From contig KN832558.1 of NCBI GenBank assembly GCA_000827205.1, positions 1,607,942 through 1,671,941 on the forward strand: a DNA stretch of 64,000 nt. Reading direction: 5' to 3'. The notes beneath the pieces were generated by a model. The model made no database searches. It was not told where the DNA came from and saw only the letters and a list, made by a program, of their open reading frames with translations. Source of the DNA: Plicaturopsis crispa FD-325 SS-3 (lineage: Eukaryota; Basidiomycota; Agaricomycetes; Amylocorticiales; Amylocorticiaceae). Shown here piece by piece: positions 34,281 through 64,000 of this stretch (the first letter of the stretch is position 1; the number at the start of each line of letters is the position of its first letter). Made by a program: the position numbers and the translations under genes.

Positions 34281-34288
34281 CTTTTATA
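34281..34288 (-). promoter_or_regulatory. TATA box of the aldo/keto reductase gene
   Basis: Reads tataaaag on the minus strand 85 bp upstream of the ATG at 34195. Confidence 0.5.
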
Positions 34289-34696: not shown

Positions 34697-34703
34697 TATA
34701 AAG
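34697..34703 (+). promoter_or_regulatory. TATA box of SDR3
   Basis: tataaag 85 bp upstream of the ATG at 34789. The AKR and SDR3 genes are divergent and share the roughly 590-bp region 34196-34788, which holds both boxes and no other recognised feature. Confidence 0.5.
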
Positions 34704-34788
34704 GAAGCATAATTATTGTGACGCTGTGAGAGCCAGTCTTACCCCACCAGCGTCTCCTCTTAACTTAGCTCCTCACCCGATCACCAGC

Positions 34789-36189
34789 ATGGGTTCGTTA
34801 TTGTCCATCTCCTCAGAGTTTTTTCCCGGAAAGCCGCGATTCTCCGAGGCAGATACACCAGACCTGTCCGGAAAGGTCGTTATCGTGACTGGCGGAAATT
34901 CTGGCGTGGGTAAAGTGACTGCAAGAGTGAGCACCACCATGGCTTTCAATCCTTCTCCCTCCACTAAATATCCTTTGCATACTAGGCCCTTCTCGCCCAC
35001 AACGCGAAAGTATACATCGCGGCCAGAAGTCCGTCCAAGGTCGAGACTGCTATTCAAGAGCTCAAAGCAGCAACGGGAAAAAACTCGGTTCACTTTCTCA
35101 AGTTAGACCTTGCCGACTTGAAGTCGGTCAAAGCTGCAGCAGAAGAATTTTCTAGGTACGGCCATATGTATCTGGATGTAATCGTATTCGCACCTGCTGA
35201 ATTTCATTGTGTAGCAAAGAGAGCCAGCTGCATTTCCTTTACAACAATGCGTGAGTTTAGCTCAGTGTGCCTTTTACCTCCCGCTGACTTGTGTATAGAG
35301 GTGTAATGGCATGTCCTGTAGATCAAATCACTGCGCAGGGGTATGATCTCCAGTTTGGCGTCAATGTTCTTGGTACGGCGAGTCAAAATTTTGAGTCCAT
35401 CGCCTTTCACTGACTTGCTCAAACGCTACAGGCCATTTTTATTTCACACAGCTCCTACTTCCTATCCTGACCTCAACGGCCCAGGCTTCGCCGCCTGGTA
35501 CTGTGCGGATCGTGAATACCTCCTCTCTGGTGCATTGGTACGGAAAGCTCGATTTCGCAACCTTCAAGGATGGTCCGAAGCGCAGGAAGGTCGACACCCA
35601 GATGCTTTACGCGCAGAGCAAGATTGTGAGTAGATTTATGAGCTCGGCAGATCAATTAGTATTGCGCCTCGACTCATCTCACTCTTCAGGGGAATGCTAT
35701 ATATTCGATGGAGTTTGCACGGCGGTATGCCGACAAAGGCATCATCACCTCAGTAATCAATCCTGGTATGCTCGTCTGTGCAAATGCATGCGCATGTACG
35801 TCGTGCTTATGATATACTTACAGGTAATCTGAAAACGGAACTACAGCGCGAGTTTCGTGGACTGCACGCCAAGATGGTGGTATGTCTGCTCCGCATCCCA
35901 TCGTTTAAGGCGTGATTGCTCAAATTGATTGAAGGACCTTTTACTGTACGATGTCAACACTTATGGCGCACTTTCGCCACTCTACGTAGGTGTCTCGCAG
36001 GAAGGCGCCGAATTGAACGGACAGGTCTGTCTTCCAGCTTCGATATACCGCGTGGATGCTAACATGTGCCTTTAGTACATCATGCCGTGGGCGCGAATCG
36101 GGCGTGGCAAAGACATAATCAGGAATCCCAAAATTGGACGCGATTTGTGGAACTGGCTCGAAGAGCAGGTTGCTCAGGCTGGTCTGTAA
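34789..36189 (+). CDS. short-chain dehydrogenase/reductase (SDR3)
   Basis: SDR oxidoreductase, paralog of SDR1 and SDR2. Exons 34789-34926, 34986-35155, 35215-35250, 35299-35372, 35432-35625, 35690-35765, 35824-35879, 35935-36024, 36076-36189; 315 residues. Eight of the nine exons have exactly the lengths of the SDR1 exons. Rossmann motif [63 protein letters not shown], catalytic Ser in [11 protein letters not shown], catalytic LYAQSKI, then [15 protein letters not shown]. The C-terminus is [13 protein letters not shown]. No signal peptide; likely soluble. Substrate unknown. Confidence 0.93.
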
Positions 36190-43335: not shown

Positions 43336-45938
43336 CTATCCAGCGCGTCTCGCCATCTCGCGTTGAAGATCACCGAATATGCGGCCAGCAAGACGTATTG
43401 CAGATGTGTGCCAGTCCGCGGCGAGGTGGTGGAGCAGACGCTTGCGGGAAATATACGACATCTCCGTCTGTGGGAGGAGCGCCGGTAGAGGAGGTAGCTG
43501 GCCGTAGTAAAAGAGAGATTGATGAAATGGCCAGCACTCATCGTCGCAGAAAAGGGACTTAGCTGTGTGCAATAAGCGTTGTTGAGCCGGTTCTGGCACC
43601 TCCTGCTCAGCCAGTTTCATTCTCGTTCGTCCCACAACATCGTCGGCAGTCATCCGTCTCCATTCCGTGTACCTTGGGCATTCGACGAATATGTGGTGGG
43701 CGCTTTCCGAAGTTTCGCACCCGAAACGGCAGCGGTCGCCGATCAGCTTGTCACGGCGGAAAAGCACGTCGGCCGTGGGTAGCTGCCCAGACCGTGCATA
43801 GAGCTGTATTGTCGCGGAGTGTGCGGACTGCGCGTGTGTGTAAGGGTAGCTGGGCGGCGGATGGTTGTCGTGTAAGGGGCTGTACATGCGATAGGGGTGC
43901 GAGGACGCGAGCGAGAGTGCGGTTTGTTTGGCAAGGAAGAAATCCACAAAATGCCTGATGTTTGATTCGATCCAGCCGTCGCGCTCTCGATAGAATGTGT
44001 ACGTGTCCATGAAGAATGTGGGAGACGGGGCGACGGGGATGGTAAGCAGATGCCTCTGGGACTCTGAAGCATAGAAGTCAGCTTCAGAGTTCAACAGAGA
44101 AGGGATGGATACCTCGTCAGAGTGGCCCGGCGTGTAGATCATTTGCGCGCGACTACGTTCTCTTAACGATAATATCCATCGGTAGTACGATCTCCCATTC
44201 ATGTTCTTCAATCGGGCGTCCTGACTGATACGGCTCTTGGCGTCGTCGAGAAAGCGTGTCGCATTCATGTGATCTGAATAGATGCGAGGCACGTCTAATG
44301 TCGAGTCCGCTAAAACGAGTCCCGAAATCAGGCCCATGAGTTCTCCGTGAAGAATGTTAAGGTTACGGCCCTTCAGCTTCATGACCAATGTACATGGTCC
44401 TGTGATCGACGCGGTCACGGATTTATCGTCGCCTATACCAACCGATGCCGGGGTCATAGAGCCGTCTGAGCCCCATATTTGCTGTTGACCGCTGGTTGGT
44501 GAAGCGCGAAAGCCGCATACGCGAGAGAGGTAGGCGATGAGACGTTCCGCTTTCGTTTGACGAAGCGTTGGCGGAAGGAGCAAGTCGGCGGGGCCATTTA
44601 CGAGCCATGCTATGTCGAGGTTTGAAGCGACATTTGTGATTTTCGCGTAGTTCGTCAATGCTGCGGGTGACCATCCATTGACGTCGACGGGGATTTGTTT
44701 CGGAATGAACACGACATCGCCTGATTGTGAGACGGTCCATTGTCCGATGTCCGCGAGTGTGCGTACGCCCTTGCTTCTGAGGGATCTGATGGTGTTGCCG
44801 TCCGGACTATCTGGAAACTTCGGCATGTGGTGATTGTGTAACCTCGTTATGTGGGACAAGGAAACGTCACCTTGCGCGATCCATGACATGTCCGTAGCTC
44901 GGAGAGACAGCTTAGGAGCAAGCGACGCCATGGCTTTCTGCGCGAGGATCCATGCAGCGGGGATGCTCTTTGCAAAATGCGAAAAATCCTTGCGAAGGCC
45001 TTCGCCGTCGAGAGGATAGATGCACCCGTTCTTGTCACAAGTCCAATCTGCGAGAGTGATCCGGGCCATATCACGATATGCACGAATTTGATGATTGAGA
45101 TCGCGACCAAGTCCCTCTACCGCGATGGATTGATTTATTCGTGAGATAGACGGGAAGTCGAAGCCGCGGTCGCCGACAGGTTGGTTGGCGATGTTGCCGT
45201 TCATGCGGAAGGGTAAGCCCAGTATGTCGTGCACCTTCGTCATTATGTGATTGTCGAGATTTACAGCGTCGATCTGTTTGATTGGCTGCAGGGCGAGGAG
45301 GGCGCGCACGCGGGATATGATGTTCTGTGAGACGATTTTCCGAAGGAGCGTTACCGGAGGCCTTCCGTTCAACTTGGGGAATGTGAAGTCGTCAATGAAG
45401 TCGCGTAGTTCCTCGTATCGAGCAGTAGGGTCGTCAACCTTCGTGCGGAGGAACTCTAGCTCATTCAAGATCAGCGGTACTTCGTGCTCGGTGATTATGA
45501 GCGGGTCAACTCCCTTCTCATGTGTTATTGACGGCAGCGAAAGTTTGCTGGGATGGACGACTTTCGGATCGCCACTGAGTAAGTACGCAGCAGTTTTCGG
45601 CCAGTTTGTGCGCCATCCGTAGGCATATTGAAAGCGTTCCATAAGAAGGGTGTTGTTGCGGAGAGATGGATAGTGAAGATATACGAGTCATCGGTTGCTT
45701 CCGCCATCGTGATACGTGCCTGGATTTTATCGTCAGGTGTATGCGGATCGGCCGTCAGACAAGACTTGGTGGCGACCGTGAGTGATGATGGGTCGAGCGC
45801 CGCAATATCGTTGAGATACCGATGGCCCATGCTGGTCGTGAACGTCGATTTCAGCGGCGACATGGGGCCGCCTTGTTTCGCTACATCGGATACTCGTATA
45901 GGTTCGGTGAGGCCGTACGCGGTGCGGATGAAGCACCT
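43336..45938 (-). mobile_element. LINE, 3' half (end of reverse transcriptase, RNase H, zinc knuckle)
   Basis: 3' part of a non-LTR retrotransposon of the APE/RT/RNase H type. Reading on the minus strand from 45938: RCFIRTAYGLTEPI, the RT block KQGGPMSPLKSTF, and the catalytic MAEATDDSYIF (x-DD). Near 45640 the coding frame changes and continues in the long frame 45642-43336: MERFQYAYGWRTNW (thumb), RNase H residues in WGSDGSM, ILHGELMGL, IYSDHM and NSEADFY, then a C-x3-C-x7-H-x4-C knuckle (CRFGCETSESAHHIFVECP). The left-most sequence is the partner of the half at 58250-63110: both end on the same 8 bp, aagcacct. The frame change indicates decay. Confidence 0.9.
45931..45938. repeat. target-site duplication, left copy (aagcacct)
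   Basis: Eight bases directly left of the KDZ element, repeated exactly at 58250-58257. Removing the element and one copy restores the LINE reading frame across the site (Asp-Thr-Arg-Cys-Phe-Ile-Arg), which proves the interruption. Confidence 0.9.
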
Positions 45939-46921
45939 CACCCTTGGCAGTAGTTTATCATACCTTCTATTATCTTAAAGACTACCTTTGTATGCAGAGC
46001 ATAAAGGGCCTGCGAGACATCAATCCCCAAGATCCTTCCATGCCAGTTCCCAATGCAGCTATCCAGCATCTCGTCCATCTTCGCAGTCTCCATTATTTGG
46101 CTCTAACACATCGTAACGCTGCTCGGTGAGGCTCTGAATATGCATCTCTTCCTACCATCTCGCAGACTCCCCGGCCATTAGTATGCTGAGTGTTCAATGG
46201 TATGTACACCCACCAAGTTCATGAATCTGACATAGTTCTCACCAGCTTGGGTTTACAGTGACACTGCCCGGTCATTCTTGGTATGCATTTATGTTTTGCG
46301 CACCAGCCGCCTATGCATAGTCCACCTCATCGCTGGGATTTCACGTCAGGAACATCGATCTTACTGGCTTACAACAGCGTTAAAAGTTATTATTGACTTG
46401 CACCCGTAGTGCTTATACACAGTATGATGAGAACGAGGAAAGGCAACCGAGGCAATGCCTTGGGTGCACATCACATGCATATTATCTGGGCATATGTGGT
46501 TATCGCCTGCAGCTGTGATATGCAATGCGCATATGTGTATACACGTCAGATGGATCGTGCGAGTCATGCTTGTCTCATGTTGCATGCCTTGTCATAGATG
46601 CTTTCATCGAAATACAATCTATCTACCCGAGAATAAACAGTAGGTGACGCTATGACATGGTAGTAAATGCAGGCAGCGGAATCGTGGATGAAACATAGAG
46701 TCCGAATGGCACTGCCAAACGGGACGGCGGTAGTAGTAGGTAGCAGTGTGCGCAAGTGAAAGCAAGGGTGTGAATATTATACATTAGGGGAAAAGGAGAA
46801 TGGGGCAAGATGCGGACGTTATGTGCAAGGGGAGGGGAAGAGCGGGGGAGGAGCTGCGAGGCATGGCAAGATGGACAGTCACAAGAGCAAGAAAGTTCAA
46901 GAAAAGGAAACCCCCACAGTA
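45939..46921. other. left subterminal non-coding region of the KDZ element
   Basis: About 1 kb between the left terminal repeat and the stop of the large accessory gene. Short frames only; presumed 3' UTR and terminal cis sequences. Confidence 0.4.
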
Positions 46922-49900
46922 TTAAGCTGGCCGCTCCTCGTGCACCGACGACGGTGCATCATCCCCCGCAGCGCCGGGCAGTAGCATCTCCCGATCTAGA
47001 TGCCTTGGCGGGGCCCGAGGCAACATATTGTCTGGGAGGAACGACTGCTGCATGGACGGTCCGTGGTGCATGCTAGACTCGTACCGATGTTGGTTGGGCA
47101 TCATCCGAGTGTCTGTGTAGCTGTGCATATAACCTGGATATTGATCCTGATATCCTTGAGACGGCCCGCCTGCATTTGCGTATCCGGCGTGAGGACGAGC
47201 ATCCATGCTGACGTAGCCAGCGTGAGGCGATCGGTGGTCCCTGTCACCATAGGCGGAATACTGTGGTCGAGGGGCCCACTGCTGATCGTTATATCCTGGA
47301 TGATGAGGGCTCCGAGATGATGGTGGCCGATCATAATACGTGGATGGTGCAGGTGGACCAACATAAGAGCGGGGGTATTGGGGTTCGGAGAATCCCGTCG
47401 TATTGCGCACCTCGCGTGCATCGAATTGCGCTGGGCCACCGAGGGGTTGTTGAGCAGGATGCGCGCGTTCAGGCGGTAGTTGTCCGAAGGCAGCATTGGG
47501 CGTATTCAATGGCCGAGAGGGTTGCTGTTGCATCGCGGGAGACGGATGTCCCCATCCAGACTCCTCTTTGACAGCGTAGTCATAGGATTTATCACGAGGA
47601 CGGGGATCGGAGCCATCGGTGCCAGCCGGACTATGGCCAGGAATCCTCAGGGGTGGGCGCAACGCAGGCGCCCCATCGCGACGTACTCCATCTTGCCCAT
47701 TGCTGGTGAAGTCGTAACCACCAGTGCCTTTGCCCGTAGAGGGCGCTGGTGGAAGCGCCCCATCTGCCCGACTGTCTGAAGGTGACGTGTCTGGGAGGGA
47801 GGTCAAAGGAGACATAGACCCCAGGCCATGCACACTGCCGCCCGCAATGGGAGCAGTTTTGCCTGAGGTCTTATACGCTGGACGGGGTGCCGGCCGAGCT
47901 GCTTGATCGGGCTTTGCTGCTATTGAATCTAATCCTTAGCATGCTAAATGCGGCGAGTAGGGAAACAACGTACAAGGCACATTCCGACGTGCGACAGCTG
48001 CCGTCGATGGACTCGGAGCTTGACGCTGACGTTTCGCTATGATGCACTGTGTCAGGCTCACGAACGTGATAAAAACTTGGAGGAACTCACGCGAAGGGCT
48101 GCCAGGTACATCTTCATTCACTGGCAGTGACGGGACCCTGCTAGTGTTCCTCTTCAGAGGACTAGCATGAACACTGCTAGCACTGACGCTGCTGTTCACG
48201 CTGTGCGCTCGGGTTGACTTCTTGGTGGGCCTGGAGTTCTTCTCCGATGATTTCGACTTGCGCTTTCTATGACCGACAGCGGCATCCTCGTATTCGGAGT
48301 CGGACTCAGCATCGTCCTGGAGAGACTCGTCGGATAGAAGTTGGATTACTTCAGGGGACGGAGGTGGTAGCTTTGTGTCGCGCGTTGTCGGTACCTTCTT
48401 GCGCCTGGTCTTGAGTTTTGGCGCAACAGGGAGGACCACTTCGACACGTTTGCCGGAGGGTTTAGTAGAGGACGCCCCACGGGTTTGCCGAGATGGTGCG
48501 TCGTCAACTTGATTGTCGACATCCATTTCGTCGGCAGTATTATTGACAGATTCGACTTTTTTCGACTTTCCCTTCGAGGATTTAGGGACGTCGCTGGAGG
48601 ATATCGTTCCATCTGCGAACATATACCGGCGTGCGACTTTTGAGCCCGGTGTGGGGCGCACCGTGGTGATAACAGGCTTTTTACTGTCCTGGAGATCTGT
48701 ACAGCCGTTCAATACCATACCAAAAGAGAATCAAATATGATGGTATACCTTGTAATGTGCGTTTATCGGAACTCTTCATGAACTGCACCCTTCCGTCTCC
48801 AGTGGCCTGAAGGGCAGCGCGGAGGATGCCCTGCTCCGCGAGGGTGAGCGCTGCGATGCCTTTGTTTGCAGTCTTGCTCGACCCATCAGTCTCCCCAGGG
48901 AGTGGGACGTCGGCTGGATAGTTCAAGAGGACCATGCCCTGCTCGGCAAGGATCCTGCACAGAGACTTCCACGGAAGAAGATTCTTGCTCGGCCATTTGC
49001 CGCCTTGATCCACTAAGAAGGCACTATATCAGTTCCACCGTACCAATCGTTGAGCTACGCCATACATACTGAACATTTGGCGGATGAGCTCCCTCACGAT
49101 CTCCAAATCTGACACTTTGGAAGGTGTTTCGGCTCCATGCTCTGCTGAATTCTCAGCGGTGCCGTCGCTCGTCTCTTCTTTCCCGACCTGATCATGAAAC
49201 GCCTCCGCTACCACGGACAATGAGACCCTGTTGCTAGATGAAAATCAGCATAACGGTCAGGGAGCAATGGTGAACAACCAATTACTAGATATGTGATTTG
49301 AAATGGCCGATGAGGGTGTCATTGTTTGCGCGGCATCTTTGCTCGAAAAACTAAGATAGTCGTCAGGATTCCTGAGTAAAATTTCATGCGCGATGAACAA
49401 AACATACCCCAGTGGCCCCGCTTGTCTCGTATACCCTGGCCAGTGAGCCGTCCTGGTTTACAACATTTCCTGCTATCACGATTGCGACGTCCAGTGAGTG
49501 CTTGATTGAATTGACGTTGATCTACAAAACCTATCCGTTATTTGTAGTCACATACAGTGTTTGAAGGATACGTACGATGCGAATCATTTCCTCAACAACC
49601 TTATTAAAGTCCCGTGCATGCTTCGCAACTGTTTTGGACGTTGTGGAGTACAGGAGCATAGTCTCGAAGGTTTCGAGCATCTCCTCCCAGTGTTGCGGAT
49701 GGTCACGTTTGAACGCATCGTAGCAATTGGAACGTAACTCAACATCTAAGAGATAACGTTAAGGATGCGAATTGGAAGGGAACAAGGTATGATATGCTTA
49801 CTATCGGAGCCCTTGACAAGTTCTGCATTGTCGACACGCTTCAACTCTTGACCGAGATGTTCAACGAAATATTGTGCGTATATGTTCCAAGGGTTCCTAA

Positions 49901-51395
49901 TGAACCCTGCTCCCCGCTGATGCTTGCGATACCAATCCGCAACTTGAGATGGATCCATGTTGGTATCATCTGAGATGCGCCGGGCAATACGGTCCATTTC
50001 TTCAAATCCGGCATCAACGATCGCGCGTGTGGCGTTTGAAGGCCGACCACGGCGAGGCACAGAACCAGAACCAGACGCGTTTGGACTGGGACTTGAATCG
50101 TATGTGTATAGCTCTGGGTCGAAATCGTTTGTTTGAGTACGTGGAGAGGGTGCGTTGACCGTTGGGGACTTTGTTGGACTATTAGGAGCGTCATGACGAG
50201 CAGCTGGAGCTACGGGAGTTGGTGGAATGATATTTGTGACCGGAGGACGGCTTGGTGCTTGCGCACCGGCGATAGGATATGGCAAGGCTTCTTGAACGGC
50301 CGGAGGTATAGACACCACCGGGGGACCAGCCGGAGCGACGGGGCCGCTGTATGGGTTGTTGTCAGGTATATGGTGCAAATCTTGAAGTAGCGGACGGGGA
50401 TATGGATGGTTGGTGGACGCATGCAAGGCAGAGTGGTCTGGATAGCCCATCCAGCGACCATCCTGTGGATGTTCACGGGTGCGGAGATGGGCATTTGGCG
50501 GTGGTAAAGGGGACCGAGAACGCGACGATCTGGTGTGCTGGGCGTATGACTGTGCATGGTCGTGGTCGTGGATATATGGACTAGCGGCGTGTGACCCAGA
50601 AGGGTGGGATAAGGCGGGCTGGTTGTAGGGATGTGGTTGGAATTCCGCCTGACGTGTTGAACGCGACAGGTTAGGTTCTCGGTCCTGCATGACAGCGTGT
50701 CCGCGATGACCTTGCGGAGCAAGCGACGAGGAGCCCATCTCCCGTTGCTCATGGCGATCATCTGTTGCCAGATAACTTTGCGGGCCCTGCTCTCGACCAG
50801 AATATAAGTGGCGGTCATCAGGGTGTTGACCAGTGTTCAAACGCCAATTGTGGTCGTGCTCAGACGGCCCAGCAGGTAGCCCGATAGACTCAAAGCCTGC
50901 GTAGTCAAGATATTGCTTGAGCCCAGAATCATTAAATGCGGTCGCCGATGGAGTGGAGCCGGGAGGGTGTGATTGTCTGACGGTGGCAGGCGCGTCCATG
51001 GTGTGACTAGTGGGATGCAGGGGAATGGAGCGTGTAGACGGTGACGGTGTTTGTAAAGGGGATACCCTTGAGTCAGCCGTGCGTGTTGTTGCCGCGTTAG
51101 CGTCAGGTAGAAGCTGGGCGCGACGCTTCAACGCATCACCAATGAATCCATCGTCCTTTTTTGAAGGGGTAAGCGACGTCCGCAAGCGGGTAGGGGTCTC
51201 AAGGTTGGGTTCTGGTGGGCGAGTACGGCGACCGCCACCCCCAACCTGTTCAGGATGGCATGAAGAGCGGGTCGGCGAAGGAGAATGGGTATTGAAGCTG
51301 CCAGGGATTGGCAATTCCACATTGGCCATTCCCGGCGGCGTTGTGTACGCTGCCATTGCTTGCTCCGTGCCAGGACTAACTGCGTCTTCTTCCAT
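46922..51395 (-). CDS. KDZ-element accessory protein, large, unknown function
   Basis: Family not recognised by name. ATG at 51395 (MEEDAVSPGTEQAMAAYTTP). The first 480 residues are Pro/Ser/His/Tyr-rich and disordered. A conserved-looking block follows: ATRAIVDAGFEEMDRIARRI, DPSQVADWYRKHQ, FIRNPWNIYAQYFVEHLGQE. Later exons read RSNCYDAFKRDHPQHWEEML, HARDFNKVVEEMIRI, AIVIAGNVVNQDGSLARVYE, FFEQRCRANNDTLIGHFKS, VRELIRQMFSM, KWPSKNLLPWKSLCRILAEQ. The C-terminus is basic/acidic (KLKTRRKKVP, ESDSEYEDAAVGHRKRKSK), then a Tyr/Pro/Gly/His-rich tail ending at 46922. About eight exons; the last two junctions (48080-47920) are not fully resolved. Position between the terminal repeats implies a role in transposition, maintenance or host interaction; none is shown. 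Confidence 0.65.
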
Positions 51396-52653
51396 TTCTA
51401 GCGTGTAGTTGTCAGGATACAGGAGAAGTGTGATATGAAAGATAGACCACATACTGTGAAATTGGACCGAAGCAATTTTGGTGTCAAATACGGATCGCGT
51501 CAAAAAAACGTGCTAAGGTCGAAAGTTAAGGCAAGTTCGGGCAAATGGATGGGTCGACTCGCACACCTTGATAGGTTTACAATATGCTGTTTTATAGTTT
51601 TGGGTGGTCGAGGCGTCAAGAACGAGCTGAAAAGGGATGATGAGTCAATGTAGAGATACATTGTCACTGCACAAACCTAGTACGTTTTGCAAGATGAAGA
51701 TACAAGGGAATATATAGCCAGCACTGTGCTGATGAGTACCTGCAAATAGAATCTCTGGTCAGTCAACGCTAATGGGCGCCACGTATGACTTCAAATACCT
51801 GGTGTAGATAGCAAGATATGCAATAAAATAGGGCGATAATACGAGATGAGACGTTGAAATTTGTCAGTGTGTGGGTAGCAGAATGGGGGAGAAAGATGGA
51901 GGGCAAATTGGGACTCAAACTACTCGTACGGTTGATATAGCCCCGCCCATCGAAACGACCGTTGGAAGGGCCGCGGTAGCCCACGCATATTGAGACCTTC
52001 GAGGCAAGCAATCAAGATGTTAAATGGAAAGATTGAAAAGTTTAAGCTGCAGCATTGGATGCAGAACGATAGAGGTGAGTGGTAGAGTGCTGAAGCATCC
52101 CAAGCATCCCCAGTATCGCTGGCATATGAAGCTTTGTCAGCAAGTAGGATCCAGCCAATCAGAGATCGAATAAATGTCGCGCATATCTTGTATCTCACCT
52201 GCACAGTGCTATCCTTGACCGGAAAAAATAAGAAAAAATGTGGATATACTCTTGAAACATGCCTGAGTACTCTGATACAATATGCAAGGAATTGTGTCAG
52301 GTGTGAATGTTTTATGAAGGTCTGGCAAGAAAAGTACATGATTCAACGACTGAACGCCAAAGAATCCTACAGCGTTATTCAGACTCAACCATCGTTTACC
52401 AATGGGCCGTCGACCCAAGTACTCTTCCTCCAGCGAGCGTTACATGGCTATCCGTCTTCAAAAGGCTGCATATGCACGAAGTGACAAGTCCGTAGCACTA
52501 CAATCTGACATCGGTCACCACTGATTTCTTATATCTAGAGGCAAAGCAACTCGCAATGCGCGAAACCGCGCAGCGCGAAGCAATGAACACACCCACAGTG
52601 AATTTTCCCCATCCATAACCCGCCTAGCACCTCTGCCCAACTCTCTGGTCGAG
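51396..52653. promoter_or_regulatory. divergent non-coding region inside the KDZ element
   Basis: 1.26 kb between the start codons of the large minus-strand gene and the small plus-strand ORF, rich in A/T. Likely holds both promoters; no frame recognised. Confidence 0.4.
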
Positions 52654-53115
52654 ATGGCATTGCGTCCACTCCCCGAGTCTGCCCCCCTCTTTGTGGAAGC
52701 TCTGAGTAGCCCAGATGCTCTCGATGAAGGTGGTCTTGAACAGTGGGATGATGATCCACCGTATCTGTCACCACCTCCACCCGAGACACCATCCGAGGAT
52801 AACTACACGGCCCGCCTCGTTGAAGTTATGCATGGGCGGAGGCTTCGTATCGAGAGGGCCCGTGTTGCAGCTCGTTTGGCAGAGTTTAGCAGAGATGAAG
52901 ATGGGCTGAGGACGACACTTGCAAGTGAGCTCGAGGAGATGCTTGTGAAGTGGGAGGCACTAGAGCTTTTCACAGCAGGTGATAGTAGTTGTTCGAGGCA
53001 CCGTCGGATGGCTGAGCATTTGCTACAGTGGAGAGCAAGGCTAGTTTATAGTGCGCACCAAGAACTAGAACTACTTGGTAAAAAATGTACGGTTGACAAG
53101 AATGTTGGTTCATAG
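52654..53115 (+). CDS. KDZ-element small accessory protein
   Basis: Intronless 153-residue frame on the strand opposite the other two genes of the element. The N-terminal 55 residues are acidic and Pro-rich (EQWDDDPPYLSPPPPETPSE); the rest is strongly helical with heptad-like spacing (RRLRIERARVAARLAEF; LASELEEMLVKWEALELF) and ends with RRMAEHLLQWRARLVYSAHQ and ELELLGKKC. Its stop lies 42 bp from the stop of the transposase gene, convergent. Similar short helical frames are, from memory, common beside fungal KDZ transposases; that is not verified here. No enzymatic motif seen. Confidence 0.6.
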   Translation: MALRPLPESAPLFVEALSSPDALDEGGLEQWDDDPPYLSPPPPETPSEDNYTARLVEVMHGRRLRIERARVAARLAEFSRDEDGLRTTLASELEEMLVKWEALELFTAGDSSCSRHRRMAEHLLQWRARLVYSAHQELELLGKKCTVDKNVGS

Positions 53116-53157
53116 ATTTGTAGCTAGATTGTACGACCTTTTTGCGTGATTGTAGAC

Positions 53158-56100
53158 TTACGACGACAATGGTAGAGCAAGAATAGATGACAAAAGGTAA
53201 CTTCGAAACCAAACCATGTCCGCCTCGAGAAGTCCAGTAGCATGGTAGCCACGGAATATTGAGACTATGGAGGCCAGGACCCACAGGCCACAGTCATATC
53301 CGTTTGTTTGATGTGCACAGTCCTAGCATTATAGAGAATCCTCAGCAAGACATATCACGATGAAAAACATAGATGACCAACTGATACAGGATGCGCAGTC
53401 CATTCAGTGGCATTCACCGATAGCGGATAGCCGTGGTCATTTGCAAGTGTAGCCATCCGCTGGACTAATTCCATGATGGTCTATCGCATGTAACATGTAG
53501 GCTGTAAGCAACTATCCGTGAAGATAAACAGCACTTACCTCAACATCGCTAGACCATGCTCTCCGCCCGCACAGACTATCAAACAGAAATAACTCACTCC
53601 GACGAGGATATATTGTACATAGAACCCAGTGTCCTACTGGAGATGTACGGTGAATCGGAACTATCCAGATATCTTTGAGCCAGTATGAAGAGCGTCGAAT
53701 ATTCCTCCATAGAACATCATCTGTTGACTTGTCGCGGATGCGAACAAGTTCAAATGTCGACAGGATCGCACATCGGGAGGCATTTGGAGCACTTGAAAGG
53801 GAGTGGAGAAGCCGTGCTCCGCCGTTCATGCAGTTGTCGTTCAGTCGGGCCGTCGGCGATGCAAGGATCCGGAGGTCGCTTGGCTCAAAGCATGCCCCGC
53901 GCGAATTGTTGTCGGCTCCAAGGATCCGTGAAGAGCATAGCTCAAACGGTGTTGGACTAGCGGGTAGGTGTTGTGAGATATTTTGGAACGTGTCCACGGT
54001 CAGCACATCCTGAACATATAACTGAGTACAATGGGATAGTCCAATCAATATGGGTTTACCGGCAATTTCCATATAATCGATGCAGACAACATGGCGGCGC
54101 TCGGAACATGCGGAGGCACCTCGCCATCAGACATGTCATCCTCGTCGTCAGAGGAGTCAGCCAGATAGTAGTCGAGGACGGTCTCTTCAGGCTCAAGCGG
54201 CACAATTTCGCTGTCATCGACATCGACAGGGCCTTGCGATGCATCAGGGACAGTGAGCTGCACGGGTGTGATCCAGCGAAGCGGCATTGGAGGCAGACAC
54301 GCAGACCCATCTCCGCAAAGGGTATCTGCAATAGCTACAGAATTGGTGACGTGATGCTGAAAGCGAAGGAGGGATACAAATGGATTAGTCCAACGACTTC
54401 TGAGGAGTAGAAGTTGCTCGCGGCGTTGGCCAAGTAGAATAGCGAGTGATGAATCTATGTTCACAAGGTCAGCCAATCCTAGTGCGTAAAGACGGCACTA
54501 AGACGACATACTTGACTGTCTACGCAACGCAAGCTCAACAGCGGCAAGCTCTCGTCCAAACCATCTGCATAGATTGTCAGCTTCCAAACCAAGGCGGTGA
54601 CGCTCTTCGAGGCATCGATCCAGCTTGAGCATTGCTCGTATCCCATCACGGACATCAGCATCTTCTAGCCATCGCGGTGTCAGCCCCTCTGACGGGGCAA
54701 TCCACACATCCTCCATCAAGTTTGAGCCATCGCGAAGGTCGGCCAGCTTAGTCGGCAGAGGTTGCGGAAGAGGGATGGACCATTCGGGCTGGTGGAGTTC
54801 TTCAAGCTGTTGACAATATACATTGAATTTGCGGATTGCAGTCATCAAAGCTGGCTGCCTCTTAGCGATCGCCTTTCGTGTATGCTGGTGTAGTTTTGTG
54901 CCTGTTATACTTGTGAGAGAGAATGGGATACAATTTGATTTACGACTCACCAAGTGGCTGCTGCTTGCCGCCGATAGCCTGGTCTAGTTTGTCCCACTCA
55001 AAAAAACTCCCTATCGCCCGTTTACGAATATTAATCTTGAGGTCGCGAGCCATTAAAAGTATCCTCACAAACTCGAGATCGACATCCTGTAATTCTGGGA
55101 AGGACGTGTGGATGTTCAGCGACGCATAAAGTGATTCAACCTTTGATTTGAGTCGGTCGTGGGTGCGTTCAAGTCCAGCCATGACGTCTTGCGTGTCGTG
55201 AGATGCCGGACCCTTGGATATGATGGTTTTCGTGGCGTGTATTGCCTTTTCAGATGTATCCAGGTCCCCTTGAAGGACAAGCACGGTGTCGAGCTCCTTC
55301 TTGAGACGTTGTGGGGCATCTTCAAATTGTTTCAAGGTTACTATGGTCGCAATAATGGATTTGAGACACTCACGGGCACGCAAGGAGAGTTGTGACGCTT
55401 TTTGAAGAGCCCATTGTTCGCGTAGATCTGGTAAAGAGACTCCGCAGGCATCGATAGTCTTCTGTGCCTTAGCGCCTTGGACGTTGATGCCCCGGCCAAG
55501 TCGACGGAGAATCCAATCGCCTAGATCGTCCCGCAGTTCAAGGCCTATTGAGGACGCTTGGCGATCGAGAAGCCATATTCGTCGGGAGCGCTGTATAGGT
55601 GTGAGTTCTGTAGGCAAACGATGCAGGCGCACGACTTACACCAGATGAACGGGTGATGCCTATGAGTTTGCGAAGGCGTGACCACAATCGCTCAACGCCC
55701 TCACCATCCGTCAGTCCAAGACCTTTGCGCAGTCGCGGGTTGTATATGAGTTGGCAAGACCACTGATGCCCGTACGCATGCATCGCACTGGTCACAAACA
55801 CGAGACGACTAGTAATTGCATCTGAAAGAATGTCGTACTATGATGATATCAGTTACATTATCAATGATTGATAATGCTGGGGCTTACAAGGCAAAGACTT
55901 CGATCCAGAACGCATCCTACATCGTATAGACAAACAACTGTTGCCTGGGGAGGGAGGAGCGCGTAAAGATGTTCCAGCAGTGCGACGGAGTACTTTTGTT
56001 GCTCGCCAGGGGTGTCAATGTTCGCAAAGAAGAGGGGGATGTCATGACGGCAAACAAGGGCCATCCATCCACTATCGTCGAATGCATCCATGTTTGCCTT

Positions 56101-57684
56101 TTGCTTGTTACCATTGGCGGCAGCATGAGACTCTTCGCAATCGTCTACAGCCTCATCAGGAACCTGCGGAGAATACGCCCGGGGGGTCTTCTTTCGTGCC
56201 GCGTCAATGCGCTGCCCGACTGCATCCACTTGCGCTTTCGGAATAACATACTGTGGGTCATAGAAGTGTGGGCTGTCGCCCGCAGCACGGCGATGTCGGT
56301 GGTGAAAGTTGCCATCTGTAGCGACATGTACATCACCGCCCCTAAAAAGTATACGTTTAGCTGATGATACGATGCGCAAGCTGGTGAAGAACTCACACGT
56401 CAAAAGAGTGCCCAAATGCGAGCCCTCCAAAGCAAGCAGGGCATCGCTGCTGAAGTATTCGAGCGCATTGACCGGGTGTGGAAGACGGCGGAATCTTGGA
56501 TTGGGGAGATGCTGTAGACTCGGGTTGGGCAAGGGATGTCGGGGTGGCATTGCGCAGAGGTGGAAGCTCCGGTGAAAGCATTGGGTCGGGCTCCAGGTCA
56601 TGTCCGTGAGTCTTTGAGCGGGCATCTGCAATCTCTGTGTCGCAATCTCGGATCGCAGCATCTATGCGCTCTTGGACACGGAGTTGCAGTATGTCATGCC
56701 ATTGTATAGCGCTCCCTAAACTTCTGCGGAAGGGATCACTGATTCGTTCTCCCTGGGTTTGATATTAGTTTCCTCCCCTTCGAAGACAATATGGTGTATT
56801 TACCTTTTTGTTGATCGCGTGAAAGCCTCTCCGTGTATAGAATGAATGTAATGCTGACGCCATGGCATTCACTGCATCGCAGGAGCGCTCAAATAAGGCG
56901 TGGTAGAAGTCGAGGAGCTCAATGGAGACAGCCATGCGAGGCTGAGAGGGAGACGTGGGGAAGAGGCCGTGGCGTATGAGCACTTGGTGAGTTGTGTCGC
57001 ACTGGCAGCCATGCACATCGATAGTCTTGAAATCTATCCTGCAATCAATAAGTGGGCTAGACAGAACGTGCACGACAACTCACGGTCAAAGTATAGGCAG
57101 AGTATGTCGGAAGATTTGACTTCCATGCAACCCCGTAAGCATTCTCCGTAAATATGGTCCCCAACGGGAACGACAGCCTTGCTCATGGTTCGGTTTGTAT
57201 AGTGGAGGAGAGACTCGACTAAGGATGGTGTTAGCGATTTCCAACTAGCGTATAGTCGGTTGGCTTCCGCGTCAGGTAGAATACGCCTTTTCTGGGTTTT
57301 CTGGGGGGTTTCTTCGACGGTTTCGATGTGAGCAGGCGAAGACTCTTGGTCGGGCTGCACACCAGGTGCATTGTCGTCTACCCATTCGTCGTCAACATCC
57401 ATGGGGTGCTCTGCCTCTTCTTCACGTAGCGCCTGGAGCCATGGAGCAACGGCAGGTGCATGGTCATCAGTGGTGTCGTGGCTTTGAGCCTGGGCGTCTT
57501 TTTCATCCTGATGTCTCAGTTCTTCGAGCCGCTCTAGCAGACGCCGCCGTTTAGCATCATGGCCAGGTATTTCGAACTTTATGCTGGTCTTTTTCTTGTC
57601 ACGAGGCCTGCGAGGACTGGCAAAGTGCTTCCCTAGTCCAAAGGATACCGGGAGGTCACCGCGACTGCGTGGAGGCGATGACAT
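53158..57684 (-). CDS. CxC1-KDZ transposase with C-terminal Ulp1-like protease domain
   Basis: Transposase of the KDZ class. The N-terminal region is Arg/Ser-rich (LGKHFASPRRPRDKKKTSIK), then a CxC1-type cysteine cluster around VHGCQCDTTHQVLIRHGLFP with RCPACFGG. The RNase-H-like core keeps its acidic residues: ATDGNFHHRH, VCRHDIPLFFANIDTPGEQQ, CLYDVGC, MHAYGHQWSCQLIYNPRLRK and TDGEGVERLWSRL. A long coiled part follows (residues after LDRQASSIGLELRDD). The Ulp1 domain has LNDNCMNGG, catalytic His in GHWVLCTIYP, Asp in LFLFDSL, and Gln/Cys in QTNGYDCGLWVL. About ten introns with agreeing phases. One frame discontinuity lies near 54070, between the KDZ tail and GKPILIGLSH; an ATG at 54072 could start a separate protease frame. 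Confidence 0.88.
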
Positions 57685-58249
57685 GGACTTAGCAGCTGGG
57701 GCAGAGACAGGGAAAAAAGACACAGTTGGTATTCGAAGGAAGTGTACCGATACATTGATAGCATTTTAGAGCCATTGTAAGCATAGAGTTCGTCTGTCGC
57801 TGGTCTGTGGGATGGATATTCGAGATGATTGTTGGCGAGTGCATCCACCTCAACATGAGAGTGCTGCAAGTCGGTGGTGGTGAACATTGAGTCGGTAGAT
57901 GCCTTTAGATGCTTGTAGATGCATAAGTACAGGACACGTATGTCAGTAGAATGAGCGACAGCGTAGGAGTGCACGCAGGCGCCGTTCTGGTCTCATTTTT
58001 GCCATCATCTTAGTCAGCGGCAGAAATGAAACCATTCGGCTGAGTTTGAACTTTGAACAAGGATCCATCGATATCCATCCATGGCCAAGGATCAGGATGC
58101 ATTGTGGCGCATCGTACCAATCCTCAGAATATCTAGTTCTATTTATATGTGGGAGCATCGAGGATGTAGGCCTCGGAGAGCCTTTTCACTCAACATAAGA
58201 ACCCCGTCTCAAAGGATAAGAAAGAAGCAAGAAGGTCATGCCTTAGGTG
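57685..58249. other. right subterminal non-coding region of the KDZ element
   Basis: 565 bp between the transposase start and the right terminal repeat; expected promoter and transposase-binding sequences. Nothing further recognised. Confidence 0.4.
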
Positions 58250-58257
58250 AAGCACCT
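58250..58257. repeat. target-site duplication, right copy (aagcacct)
   Basis: Exact match to 45931-45938; marks the right border of the KDZ element. Confidence 0.9.
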
Positions 58258-59094
58258 AGTGTCCGATTGAGCAGCGCGATCGAGTAATGCGATTGAGTCG
58301 GGAAGTCCATAAGCTGCGATCGCATCGTAGAAGCCAGCAGGAGCCAAGTAGTCAAAACCCTTCATCTGGTCACGTTTGAGCGCGTAAACCGGTTGATGAT
58401 GACGATGAGCCCAGCATTTGAGTCCGGCTAGAAAGCTCATGAGGTCGCGGGTCTGAACGCCTTGTTGTGTCGCGACCTGCGTTTCGGGGATTATTCCGAG
58501 GCGAGTCGCATATGGGTTGAGCGAATAGTTGAGCCATGACATCGGCGAGTTGGCGAGGAAATTGGAAAGGAATAGTCCGCGCCAGTTCGAGAGGTCGGTG
58601 CGGATACCACGCTTATGAATCATGATAATGGTCATGTCCTTGAGATCACCAGGAAAATGTGCGTGCATCGCAACATAATTGTGGAGATCGAGAACTAGGA
58701 GCAAGGCATTATCTGAAAGCGATTTGACGCACCATTTCTCCCAGCCATCTGGCCCTGGGGACGGTCGTTGATTTCCGCGGCGCAGCATTGCTCGGAAATC
58801 GTCAACGGCGGCAGGCCTCGGCCAGACAAATGGGTCGTCCTGGACCTTGTCCCGAATCGCATTGACAGATGGAGTGGATAGCCATGGCTTCGGAATCGCA
58901 GGAGGAGGATCGTGGTGATAGAGTTTCGAGAAATACTCTCGCGTTGTCTCTTTCACCTCGTCTGGGTCTGTCGCCAGGTGATCTGATTGATCCAGTCGAT
59001 TCACAGCCAGGGGAAGAGCAATAAACGTGCTCTTGTCCATAAGCCGTTTAGTAGACTGTCCGCGCAACATCTGCAAAAAATTTAGGTTGCTGAG
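58258..59094 (-). CDS. LINE reverse transcriptase, N-terminal portion
   Basis: Frame from LSNLNFLQMLRGQSTKRL at about 59094 to the KDZ insertion. Contains the palm/fingers blocks PSPGPDGWEKWCVKS, MTIIMIHKRG, NWRGLFLSNFLANSP, ATQQGVQTRDLMSFLAGL and the first catalytic Asp region YALKRDQMKGFDYL, then YDAIAAYGLPDSIALLDR. It stops being LINE-coded at SDTRCF, exactly at the target duplication. The remaining RT motifs are on the other half at 45525-45938. The frame differs from that of the upstream endonuclease, so at least one indel or a frame shift lies between them. Confidence 0.88.
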
Positions 59095-59097
59095 AGC

Positions 59098-59515
59098 GTC
59101 TGACAACTCTCTCAGCGCTCTCAGGCTCTCCGCAACCTAACGCGATCTGAGAGGTGCTGACAGACGCTCTCAGAGCTCTCAGCATCTCTCAGACGCCACG
59201 TGCCCGCATCTGATCGCAAGCAAGACTATGTTCGCGTTTGACAACCTTTCCTACTACGAAACAGCATGTAGCTTGTTTTGTGGGCAAGCTGTCCCTCCGA
59301 TTTTTCTTCCTGTAGCGTGTAGGCATAGCTATACCATGGTGCTTTACCTTGAGATTATTTACACAGCGAGAGTCCAATTATTGAAGCAACAGGAACATTA
59401 TTACTGAATCCAATCGAGCCCCCCGCGCACGCTCGGCCCGAGGTTCTCAGATGTTCTCAGAAATGTGCCGAAACTGACAACTGCTGAGAGCGCTGAGACA
59501 CCTGAGAGTTACGCG
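59098..59515. mobile_element. MITE-like insert inside the LINE
   Basis: 418 bp without coding capacity, flanked by agc on both sides (59095-59097 and 59516-59518), a possible 3-bp target duplication. The ends contain an imperfect inverted repeat with the shared core tctcagcgctctcag near each terminus. Both terminal regions are crowded with the unit ctctcag or its complement. It interrupts the LINE between SSSFICKKGKC and LSNLNFLQML and supplies the stop codon of the upstream frame. Family not recognised; the 3-bp duplication would suit a PIF/Harbinger- or CACTA-derived non-autonomous element. Confidence 0.6.
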
Positions 59516-62500
59516 AGCATTTTCCCTTTTTGCAGATGAACGAAGAGGAAATAAGAAACTGGTTACGTTTGCGCGCTCGTGCGTTGATTTGTGCGAGTTT
59601 TGCCGCAAACAGTTCCTTGCGCAGCATCTTCTGTCGTTGGTGCAAGTAGTCAATAAGAGAGACACAGTCCGAGAGAGACGTATCTTCTTGGTACTGCTTC
59701 GCATAGTCGACATATGCGCACTGGGAAGCGAAAGAGACACGTATGTCCTGGTGCCCGATCGACTTCGCAATACGAATCGCACCGCTGACGTTGCGAACCG
59801 AGGCAATGAGGCCGCTAATCTTGGGCGTTAAGATGGATTTGTGAGACTTCGTGAAGCGCTTATTCCTCCCAAACGAGTCCTCCGCTGACGACACGATGAT
59901 ATGTGTGAGCATGTTGTAGCGCGAGAGGAAGGAGGCGTCGTCGATAACGGGGTGTCTCAGGCTAGGCTCCGCACGGATTTTCTTGTCCACGTTCTCACGG
60001 AACACGTCGAAGCGAGCTTTCTCGGCCTTGCATGGGTACTTGATGCGTGGCTCAGTGGTCCATTGACTTGGCGCATTGGCAGGCTCTGTCATGGGTAACG
60101 CTGTCCGAGAAGTAGCTGGTGCCTGGTAGTTTAAACGGGCAACAATTGCGCGATGGTCCGTGAAAGGGATCCAGTCATTGTAGCCGTCTGCGACCCCGAT
60201 TTCGCTGTCCAAGACTGTTGCCTTCGATGTGACGACGCGGTCAATAATGCTGCCGCCAGTAGAAGCTCCGCGAGCGCGACAAGTCCAGCTACGAGAGCGA
60301 TCCCTATCGGCATCAAGAGACCATAGATCAAGCGCATTAGCATGTTCAAGAAACTGGAGGAATTGGGAGCGCGCATCGAGGCCACCCGACGAGCGTTCGA
60401 GGGCAGATACAGTAGCGTTGAGGTCCCCGGATAGCGTCCATGAAGTAGTGGTTGCGCGACATAACTGAGTGACGTCAGACCAAAACGACCTTGTTTCGTT
60501 GGAGTCTCCGGGGTTCCACGGGGCGTAGGCACCGATGAAGCGATGGCGAAACCCTTGGCCGCTAGAGGACGTTAGAACCACATCAATGACAATGATTCTC
60601 CCCCGCAGCGAGGCCTTTGTTGTTACGACACGCTGCGATATCTGCAAGTCTTTCCGGATGCCGACAACTACACCCCACTTGAAAAAGCGGCTGTTTGTCT
60701 GTCGTACACCAGGCTCTTCAAATATGTTGTATTCGCAGTTAGGCAAAGTAGAACTCAGCTTCGAGTCTGTCTTCGTCTCCGTAAGCACGAAAACATGAGG
60801 TTTTCTTGCGTTTATAGCGGTGTTGACGTGGTGGACAGTACCCGGGCTGATAAGTCCATTTGCGTTCAAGGCGTAGACAGAAACAGGTGCGGCATGCGCT
60901 TGAGTTGGCAACGCGGAGGTTAGGTTGGCAAAGAAAAGAAAGCACAGAGCGATCATCAAGATTGATTTTGAGTTCAGTGACGGCGGGGGCTTGGATATAT
61001 GTTGTACAAGACGGACACATCGAGGTCTAGAAAAGGGACAAGAAAACACGCGACTCGTGATACTGCCAACCGCCTCTCTTATATTTCCGACTACGAGGTA
61101 ACAGGAGCACCCAGACTTGCGGTGGGGCTTGTGGTACTCGTGTTGCATCGTGGGCGTCAACGAGCGGGCTGGCGAAGCATCACGAGTCGCGCTTAGCGAG
61201 CTCGATGGGAACGAGCAAAACTGAAGGCTCACATTGTCTACTGCACCATCAGGGGAACGCATAAGCTGGTCGTGATCGATGACCTTGTTTCTGCTCGCAT
61301 CGGCGGGCCTGCTAGTAGACGTGCGAACGCGCTTCGCTGGCGTCTGGCCTTCGAATTGAGACTGATCATCTCTTTCACCGCTGCTGTGCTTATGGCGTGA
61401 GGTGGGAGTAGGCGATGTGGGATCGTGAGTGGCTGCGAGAGCTTTTCCGAATAAGCCCATGGGAGGAGCGGGGATTTGCGGACGAGGCAACACGTAAGTG
61501 CTTGCGTCGCGAGAGGGTTCGCAGGAGGGAGACGCAGGCGTAGAAGTGGTTGGGGACATGTGAGCGGGGGTATCCGTGAATCCAGAGGCAATGGGAGGAG
61601 CGGTGGTCGAGGGGACGGCGTTTGCAATAGTGCGACGTGGTGGTGCGCCGACGATGTCTCCTGTGGTGCCTCCGAGCATGGCGGAAAAGCCCGTGTCCGA
61701 TGCGCGAACTTCGAGACGCAACTTTGCCTCCTGATCTCTGAGCAATGCAATCTGCTCCTTGCATTCCCGGACTTCTTCCGCGGTATCGGCGTCCTTCAGG
61801 TCCCTCCGTGCAGCCATCAGGTCCATCGACACATGGTTGAGCATCGAGTTCAGCTGCTGGGTGTTGTTTAGTACAATGAGGGCTCTGTGGTTGCGTGCCT
61901 CGGCTTCCTGGATGCCTTCGATTGACGATACCATTTTAGTCATCGCCGTCTCGATGTTACCTACTCGCGCGGTGGTTGCGGCAACGTCGCGTCGCAGCTC
62001 CTTCAGAGACTCCGTGATACCGTTGAGGCCCTTTGCGAGCTCCTGACCACCCGTGTTGATCATCCTGTAGTTATCTTTCCTGTATATCCCTTTGCTGTTA
62101 CATGTCCACAGCAGCTGCGGAGGCGTGAGATTGGCCCAGCGTTTTCCGAATGCGTCCTCGAAAGCCGTTCCCGAGCGCAGAACACGAGCGGTTGACTGCC
62201 AGTCGCACATATGGAAGATGAGCGCGTCGGGATCGCCCGGTGGGAATCTGTACGTGACGATGTGCTGGCTGTCGGGGGGAAAGAGCGAGGCGATCCAGCA
62301 GAGAATGGGGGAGTCGATGCCGTCGTAAGAATTAATGCCGTTGATGATGATCTCGAAGGCATTGCAGATTTCGATTTGGCGGCCGCGTGCGACGATGAGG
62401 GGAGAGTCTGAGACTGAGCTGATCTTCAGCTCGCGCTGATCACAGATTTGATCGACATGGGATGGGTTGGCCATGGACAGGACAGCGCCACCCGCATTGA

Positions 62501-63110
62501 CGTATGAGTCCGCGACGTGGAGGCCCTTGCCGTCGAGGTAGGAACAGATTTTCTTCACTTTGTCCAGGATTGCCGGAGAGATTTCCACGCGTCTGCCTTG
62601 AGCCGAGGCGGGTAATTCGTCAGGTTTGAACAAGTTCGTGAAACGCACCCAGCTGCGCTTGTCCTTTCCGGTAGTGGTCGGGGACCATGCTACTTCCCAC
62701 GTTGGCTGGTCATTCCGCAATGCGTGAAGCCAGACCTCCAGCAGATCACAGCGTGGTTCTTCTTCGTCTGGGGAAGGCGAGCAAGGGAGGCGAACGTAAC
62801 ACGAGGTGGATGTGGGAGCTGATGTGCCGCGGTCGCGGGAGCTGTAGGGTCTGACCTCGACTGGTATGACTGAGAGATCTTTGATCGAGGCCGAGAGCCG
62901 GGTTATTACACCTTCGACAGTAGGCACGGGGTCTGCGAGAGTCGTTTTGGATGGGTCATATACGCCGCGGATGATGAGCTCCATGCCTGATGGGACAACA
63001 ATTTCCGAGCCGTCAGCTGCGGTCGTCGTCGGAGCAGGAGAGAATATGGGAAGTAACGTAGTCCGTGCTCGGAATGGAGGGGGTTTTGGGGTGGATGGGG
63101 TAGAGTTCAT
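59457..63110 (-). CDS. LINE ORF1 plus APE endonuclease, one continuous frame
   Basis: 1217-codon open frame from MNSTPSTPKPPPF. Residues 1-480: ORF1-like, with a coiled coil (ARRDLKDADTAEEVRECKEQ) and Ser/Pro-rich linker. Around residue 740 a hydrophobic stretch, ILMIALCFLFFANLTSALP, looks like a signal or membrane segment directly ahead of the endonuclease. Endonuclease motifs: VYALNANGLISPG, VFVLTETKTDS, WGVVVGIRKDLQI, IGAYAPWNPGDSN, LSGDLNATVS, GGSIIDRVVTS and PFTDHRAIVA, all catalytic residues of the APE fold present. The last 20 residues are coded by the MITE-like insert. A gtgagc donor-like site near 61,235 raises the option that ORF1 and endonuclease are joined by splicing in the intact element. 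Confidence 0.9.
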   Translation of the reverse strand: MNSTPSTPKPPPFRARTTLLPIFSPAPTTTAADGSEIVVPSGMELIIRGVYDPSKTTLADPVPTVEGVITRLSASIKDLSVIPVEVRPYSSRDRGTSAPTSTSCYVRLPCSPSPDEEEPRCDLLEVWLHALRNDQPTWEVAWSPTTTGKDKRSWVRFTNLFKPDELPASAQGRRVEISPAILDKVKKICSYLDGKGLHVADSYVNAGGAVLSMANPSHVDQICDQRELKISSVSDSPLIVARGRQIEICNAFEIIINGINSYDGIDSPILCWIASLFPPDSQHIVTYRFPPGDPDALIFHMCDWQSTARVLRSGTAFEDAFGKRWANLTPPQLLWTCNSKGIYRKDNYRMINTGGQELAKGLNGITESLKELRRDVAATTARVGNIETAMTKMVSSIEGIQEAEARNHRALIVLNNTQQLNSMLNHVSMDLMAARRDLKDADTAEEVRECKEQIALLRDQEAKLRLEVRASDTGFSAMLGGTTGDIVGAPPRRTIANAVPSTTAPPIASGFTDTPAHMSPTTSTPASPSCEPSRDASTYVLPRPQIPAPPMGLFGKALAATHDPTSPTPTSRHKHSSGERDDQSQFEGQTPAKRVRTSTSRPADASRNKVIDHDQLMRSPDGAVDNVSLQFCSFPSSSLSATRDASPARSLTPTMQHEYHKPHRKSGCSCYLVVGNIREAVGSITSRVFSCPFSRPRCVRLVQHISKPPPSLNSKSILMIALCFLFFANLTSALPTQAHAAPVSVYALNANGLISPGTVHHVNTAINARKPHVFVLTETKTDSKLSSTLPNCEYNIFEEPGVRQTNSRFFKWGVVVGIRKDLQISQRVVTTKASLRGRIIVIDVVLTSSSGQGFRHRFIGAYAPWNPGDSNETRSFWSDVTQLCRATTTSWTLSGDLNATVSALERSSGGLDARSQFLQFLEHANALDLWSLDADRDRSRSWTCRARGASTGGSIIDRVVTSKATVLDSEIGVADGYNDWIPFTDHRAIVARLNYQAPATSRTALPMTEPANAPSQWTTEPRIKYPCKAEKARFDVFRENVDKKIRAEPSLRHPVIDDASFLSRYNMLTHIIVSSAEDSFGRNKRFTKSHKSILTPKISGLIASVRNVSGAIRIAKSIGHQDIRVSFASQCAYVDYAKQYQEDTSLSDCVSLIDYLHQRQKMLRKELFAAKLAQINARARKRNQFLISSSFICKKGKCSRNSQVSQRSQQLSVSAHF

Positions 63111-64000
63111 TTTGGGTAGGTATTGAACAACAAGCAGACGGTGGAAGATTCAAGCAAGGCAAGGAAAAAACAAGATATCAGGCTGGTTAACGGTTAACGG
63201 TAAGTATTAGACGGGGAGTTATGGGAGAGTATAGAGCGTATATTCGTGCAAAAATGGAATGGAGTGGAGTGAGGTGAAAACAAGGAGCAAGACGCGTTTT
63301 TAACGAAGATTTGAGCCACGAATTAGAAAAAGGTGTTCAAGTGGGGGTTTTAGTGGGCTGGGAGTTGGATTTTTCAGAGTTTGAGTGCAGGTTTAGAAGT
63401 AGGAACGTGAGTAAAACGCAAGGATGTGGGTATGGGGCGCGTCGGTGGTGGTGGTTGTTGTTGTTATGGGTAGTTCATGAAAAGCTGCATAACCCGCGTG
63501 AACACCATGAACCGATTTCCGTGCCGGATTCAGTCACGAGGCGCAGCCGAGCGCCCGTCGCGCCTCGCGTCGCTGTCCTTTCATGCGCCCAGATGCCCAC
63601 CCTCCAAGTCGTTTCAGGCCCGCCGGCCTGATGGACTCGGATACGGGACCGCTATGCTAACGTACGTACCTAGGGAGAGGTGAGTGCACCGAAAGGATCA
63701 TTGACGACACCTCGACATGACATGCATGGTTCGGTTCTCCACCGTTAGCGCTCCGCGCTCTTGACGCCCGCCGCCGCCCACTGTGACAGCGTCGGTGACC
63801 ATAACCAGCATGTCTAGGGCTGCAGCTGCAGCACCATGTCAATCTGCGACGCCGACACCCGTGGTCTCCGCACCCGACCCTGCGCAATCCATCGTTCTCT
63901 GCAATCTGCCTCTGAAGCTCTGTGAAGAAGGGGAAACTTGAAGGGAGAACGCGGTTGGGAGTGTCAGGTGGCGTGGGAAAATGCTTTGACAGTGTCCCAA
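63111..64000. other. 5' flank of the LINE and window end, no gene assigned
   Basis: LINE 5' untranslated region and adjoining host DNA. A short plus-strand frame starting at 63810 (MSRAAAAAPCQSATPTP, 44 codons) could be the first exon of a gene beyond the window but is unsupported. Confidence 0.35.

Follow-up and report, generated by a model that had tools for sequence, protein, structure and literature searches.

A KDZ-superfamily DNA transposon, very probably complete in structure, inserted in a LINE-like retrotransposon of Plicaturopsis crispa

Can a large mobile element be defined to the base, together with the site into which it inserted, from a single locus? This question is raised by a stretch of the Plicaturopsis crispa genome that the initial annotation read as a complete KDZ transposon nested in a LINE. 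To address it we use the coordinates of the window, meaning the whole 64,000-nt stretch of DNA that was analysed, and designate other contigs of the same genome by C-numbers (C6, C17, C27 and so on). On re-reading of the sequence, the proposed coordinates, the 12,311-bp length and the exactness of the 8-bp repeat all proved correct, and the nesting itself is supported by the transposase, the ends, the 8-bp duplication and the LINE site. We consider it very likely that the locus holds a structurally complete KDZ-superfamily transposon, with a transposase long under selection, which inserted into a LINE with duplication of the 8-bp target AAGCACCT. The features on which the argument builds are the following.

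45939..58249, no strand assigned: KDZ DNA transposon, 12,311 bp, ends CACC...GGTG
45931..45938, no strand assigned: left copy of the 8-bp target-site duplication AAGCACCT
58250..58257, no strand assigned: right copy of the 8-bp target-site duplication AAGCACCT
45939..45953, plus strand: left terminus CACCCTTGGCAGTAG, an imperfect inverted repeat of the right end (9/15), with no second copy
58235..58249, minus strand: right terminus ...TGCCTTAGGTG, at whose last base the homology with the C17 relative stops
43336..45938, minus strand: LINE-like retrotransposon, portion that follows the insertion in the minus-strand direction, with the end of the reverse-transcriptase frame and a zf-RVT-like part
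58258..63149, minus strand: LINE-like retrotransposon, part upstream of the insertion, with an endonuclease-like frame (ORF 59457-63149) and the start of the reverse transcriptase (ORF 58243-59136); contains a 471-bp insert
53155..57684, minus strand: transposase gene model, 11 exons, 1,332 aa, with CxC1/CxC2 cluster, KDZ core and C-terminal Ulp1-like peptidase
57684-57084, 57033-56804, 56752-56397, 56341-55888, 55837-55640, 55590-54951, minus strand: transposase exons 1-6
54901-54512, 54454-54060, 54009-53539, 53480-53382, 53322-53158 and then the stop, minus strand: transposase exons 7-11
46919..51395, minus strand: cargo gene, modelled from 51395 to 46922 with nine exons and a product of 1,345 aa that has an AT-hook-like RRGRP and long Pro/Ser-rich stretches
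52402..53115, plus strand: small convergent gene model, two exons, the first ending at about 52487 or 52491 and the second starting at about 52539; basic N terminus

What had been described as inverted ends of the cacc...ggca type are indeed CACC/GGTG ends with CACCnnnGGCA common to left and right in inverted orientation, but the terminal repeat that they form is weak and imperfect (CACCCTTGGCA versus CACCTAAGGCA), with an inverted identity of 4/4, 8/11, 9/15 and 15/30 bases over increasing lengths. No long inverted repeats joining both ends were present among the 25 of 71 inverted repeats listed, and a genome search for a second copy of the left terminus returned only the window itself. If the TG before the left duplication copy is counted, the repeat shared at both borders grows to 10 bp, TGAAGCACCT. 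A 10-bp duplication is, however, disfavoured, since a relative of the element on C17 retains the terminal GGTG next to a different flank, CATAGATC, and for this reason the border TG most likely belongs to the element, leaving a duplication of 8 bp.

An 8-bp repeat next to 4-bp ends is not by itself decisive. The window contains 15,924 CACC/GGTG pairs spaced 5-20 kb apart, one of which has identical 8-bp flanks against 0.24 expected at 4^-8, and shuffling the partners gave a mean of 1.4 pairs with identical flanks, in a procedure that can redraw the true pair. The bare pattern is thus not rare enough, and further evidence was therefore sought. The longer motifs occur twice each in the window (CACCnnnGGCA at 5081 and 45939, TGCCnnnGGTG ending at 46466 and 58249), and 45939/58249 is their sole combination 5-20 kb apart; the similarity of the ends, 8/12, is equalled by the best chance pair in a scan of C27 (8/12 among 600 7-bp pairs; 170 8-bp pairs reached 7/12). 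What decides for the predicted borders is the LINE junction together with the right end of the C17 relative.

At the LINE, the reading frame is continuous once the insert and one duplicate are removed, and two paralogues (within C6:1775001-1785000 and C17:108501-118500) align with it ungapped over 368 aa across the junction, with no stops. The frame thus resumes in phase, as had been claimed, and the C6 and C17 paralogues are to be read as natural empty sites, so that the open junction frame and the paralogues together bear out the claim that the pre-insertion target is readable. The matches to known domains are weak: RVT_1 in the two paralogues reaches E 0.004, and the window copy gives Exo_endo_phos at 0.0011 and zf-RVT at 0.0024, all below the Pfam cut-offs. 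The LINE is not intact in other respects: its frame changes near 45.65 kb, and an independent insertion of 471 bp occupies 59068-59538. Copies of this 471-bp repeat are 99.4% (C25), 96.7% (C15) and 95.0% (C2) identical to it, in addition to older ones, and we take it to be a short element of young age; a search within 6 bp of its limits gave no target duplication of at least 5 bp.

The right end can be compared with a second copy. When 2.3 kb from the 5' part of the transposase region served as query, the genome gave the window itself, two short matches and, at C17:39777-41885, a relative of 73% identity. The C17 relative matches window 52355-57736 at 73% and the terminal 111 bp of the element (58139-58249) at 87%, ending exactly at 58249 with an unrelated flank beyond; for the interval between, 57737-58138, C17 offers next to no DNA match and has 1.4 kb in its place. 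Because the C17 locus consists of N from 24001 to 35914, the left end of this copy is invisible, and the 0.55 kb of C17 sequence that separate the homologous part from the N run show nothing of the cargo half. The C17 copy (C17:36468-43436) thus shares with the window element a transposase of 79.6% amino acid identity, the right end and the small gene, but differs in showing no cargo before the N run. On the point of whether other copies might end elsewhere, which the initial annotation had named as evidence against its reading, the one visible right end falls on the same base, but the left part is N in C17 and the left end is single-copy. Separately, a small repeat may sit in the right-end region, since window 57981-58059 has 78-91% matches on C3, C19, C24 and C9.

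The coding content identifies the superfamily. With splice sites in the transposase and cargo models picked by hand to hold the frame open, the transposase model has 10 introns of 49-59 bp, all GT-AG, and no internal stop. In a Pfam search with the spliced protein, the KDZ domain (PF18758) covers residues 400-625 at 172.6 bits (E 1.3e-50, cut-off 26.6), the cluster at residues 190-269 matches CxC1 at 29.7 bits (cut-off 26.9, E 7.3e-7) and CxC2 at 28.2 bits (cut-off 27, E 2.3e-6), and Peptidase_C48 at residues 1148-1321 also exceeds its cut-off (E 2.5e-10), so that the proposed identity as a KDZ transposase is well founded. No paper combining KDZ with C48 was found in the part of the literature consulted, and we do not present the fusion as undescribed. 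Of the 1,332 codons, 1,323 could be aligned to C17, and one, a stop in C17, was dropped; over the remaining 1,322 we obtained a dN of 0.13 and a dS of 1.47, the latter near saturation, giving a dN/dS of about 0.09. The C17 alignment includes, besides this one in-frame stop, a 1-base gap in one exon. The substitution pattern argues that the predicted transposase is kept by purifying selection over a long divergence. At this level of identity the genome holds one copy only, and present activity is therefore unproven.

Between the transposase and the left end lies the 1,345-aa cargo gene, whose model has 8 introns of 52-57 bp, all GT-AG. Nothing over the Pfam cut-off was found in the parts scanned, a 379-aa core and three long exons, and the best PDB match of the core has an E value of 0.63. 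At the DNA level the cargo half is single-copy in the genome. In genome searches that score the best candidates only, the only other match to the cargo protein is C27:59071-59277 (40% over 69 residues, E 2e-6), and C27 pieces used as queries in turn hit, besides their own locus, the window at 43% over 62 residues. This relative lies about 7.4 kb downstream of a KDZ domain at C27:66687-67388, on the same strand, with C48-part matches between the two in collinear order; the chance that one random hit would lie on the same strand as, and at most 8 kb downstream of, any of 31 KDZ loci is about 0.004. Because the sole relative found lies downstream of another KDZ transposase on the same strand, the cargo looks like an element gene that travels with this KDZ group. 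With its RRGRP motif and the residues that follow, the cargo product may be a DNA-binding protein, the labels AT-hook-like and HMG-like being our own reading from general knowledge. The C27 copy (about 58-69 kb) thus resembles the window element in a related transposase with C48-part matches and in the cargo relative, but differs in that searches there gave neither the small gene nor recognisable ends; a scan of 15 kb for 7-10-bp duplications gave no credible pair.

The small convergent gene shows third-position bias, and its second exon is 69% identical to C17, with a dN of 0.22 and a dS of 1.23 (near saturation), values from which we read purifying selection on this putative gene. A genome search found it only in the window and C17 copies, a third row at E 2 being taken as chance, and its protein has no Pfam match over the cut-off.

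How much of the 12.3 kb belongs to the element can be disputed. The KDZ unit might be the right half only (about 52.35-58.25 kb), the left 6.4 kb with the cargo being either another mobile unit or DNA taken up from the host: the DNA homology with C17 ends at about 52355, the cargo half is single-copy, and the left end lacks a second copy. However, the full 12.3 kb lie between the two duplication copies and the in-phase halves of the LINE, and hence within one insertion; moreover, the sole cargo relative found shows the same arrangement and strand with respect to another KDZ transposase, and CACCnnnGGCA is common to both ends. We regard the right-half reading as improbable, although a later capture of the left part inside the element is possible. 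Somewhat less doubtful, though still unlikely, is that the 1,345-aa gene is a normal gene of the host that was picked up by chance, as its open nine-exon model, together with the lack of a Pfam match over the cut-off and of a PDB match below E 0.6 for the core, would allow. No unlinked copy was found among the best-scoring candidates in the genome, however, and the one relative, at 40-43% identity over 62-69 aa, has another KDZ transposase in its vicinity, making a free-standing host gene the less likely reading of the sequence.

An assembly or recombination artefact joining two LINE copies would undo the junction argument, and can be weighed by comparing the LINE on either side of it. From the upstream 270 residues to the downstream 98, identity falls from 70% to 57% between window and C6, from 69% to 46% between window and C17, and from 69% to 56% between the two paralogues. 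Since the paralogues show the same drop as the window does against C6, this drop would be a general trait of the region; the larger one against C17, which exceeds that of the paralogues, speaks for an artefact, as does the fact that the right LINE half has DNA matches elsewhere in the genome whereas the left half has none. Against it stand the exact 8-bp repeat at the junction and a frame that runs on without a gap in both paralogues. The gap-free junction and the matching fall against C6 exclude, in our judgement, an origin of the halves from different LINE copies, a possibility that the initial annotation had itself raised; as far as this could be tested, the halves behave as one copy, with the steeper C17 fall as the one discordant value, and we consider an artefact extremely improbable. 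The preferred reading is thus a single insertion of the whole element into one LINE copy.

The genome as a whole holds further KDZ and TET/JBP domains. There are 43 KDZ matches at 31 loci (including two weak matches, one of them below the cut-off), which fall into several motif groups; the motif could be read at 26 of 30 loci examined, but not at the other 4. Ten KDZ copies carry the motif YDIGCQLHRSC (on C6, C36, C38, C17, C37, C22, C42, C21 and C24) with no stop inside the KDZ match, and several of these are on short contigs. Tet_JBP has six matches in the genome, five over the cut-off, and none in the window; three of them (C1:3185061, C28:22529 and C31:73867) are about 2-8 kb from KDZ copies of a different motif group (YDIMCQYG or YDVACQWF), in agreement with the published KDZ elements that carry TET.

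The locus displays the marks of the KDZ superfamily, namely PF18758 over its cut-off, a CxC cluster, and termini with a duplication, the left end being single-copy. In the accessible portion of PMC12730594, 8-bp duplications are reported for Zisupton and a Dileera element, and the KDZ families described carry a TET/JBP gene. Compared by described features, the window element shares with Zisupton and Dileera the KDZ transposase, the 8-bp duplication, an additional gene beside the transposase and occurrence in Basidiomycota, but has the 1,345-aa gene where those have TET/JBP (PMC12730594, in part); with no Tet_JBP match in the window, it does not belong to the TET/JBP-carrying group. Kyakuja, according to the same portion of that source, has 7-bp duplications, CA..TG termini and no terminal inverted repeats; the termini and the KDZ transposase are shared, whereas the window element has the weak CACCnnnGGCA repeat and a duplication of 8 bp, which excludes membership (PMC12730594). 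KDZ1 of Cryptococcus neoformans, of about 11 kb, likewise has CxC1 and KDZ and makes 8-bp duplications in new insertions, but has 241-bp inverted repeats in place of about 11 imperfect bp, and the accessible portion of PMC12810828 describes it without mention of a C48 domain or cargo gene. In Marasmius oreades, about half of the DNA elements are KDZ or Plavaka, and terminal motifs have been characterised (PMC8290104, in part). As KDZ elements have already been published with their ends and 8-bp duplications (PMC12730594 and PMC12810828, as far as accessible), the initial description of a base-exact KDZ element as rarely available was overstated. The window element is a clean new KDZ representative, with an accessory gene for which no name was found; it is not new in kind.

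A plausible course of events can be sketched, in which the remarks on protein function are assumptions that we take from general knowledge. The insertion hit the reverse-transcriptase frame of a LINE-like element that shows decay elsewhere as well, with the left end placed by the duplication and by its likeness to the right end. The CxC-KDZ-C48 protein would cut at CACC/GGTG and reinsert the element, while its C48 domain may trim the element's own protein or strip SUMO/ubiquitin-like tags. The products of the other two genes, the small basic protein and the cargo of 1,345 aa, would be accessory, probably DNA- or chromatin-binding, and might aid mobility or escape from silencing. More tentatively, and with the balance still against it, one could speculate that these two proteins without a Pfam name, the AT-hook-/HMG-like cargo common to distant KDZ elements and the small convergent basic protein, form a helper or anti-silencing module that is independent of TET.

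With its open gene models, confirmed right end and known pre-insertion site, the element can serve as a reference for annotating KDZ copies, of which this genome has 31 loci, and the shared cargo gene offers a testable candidate for an accessory factor in KDZ elements without TET/JBP.
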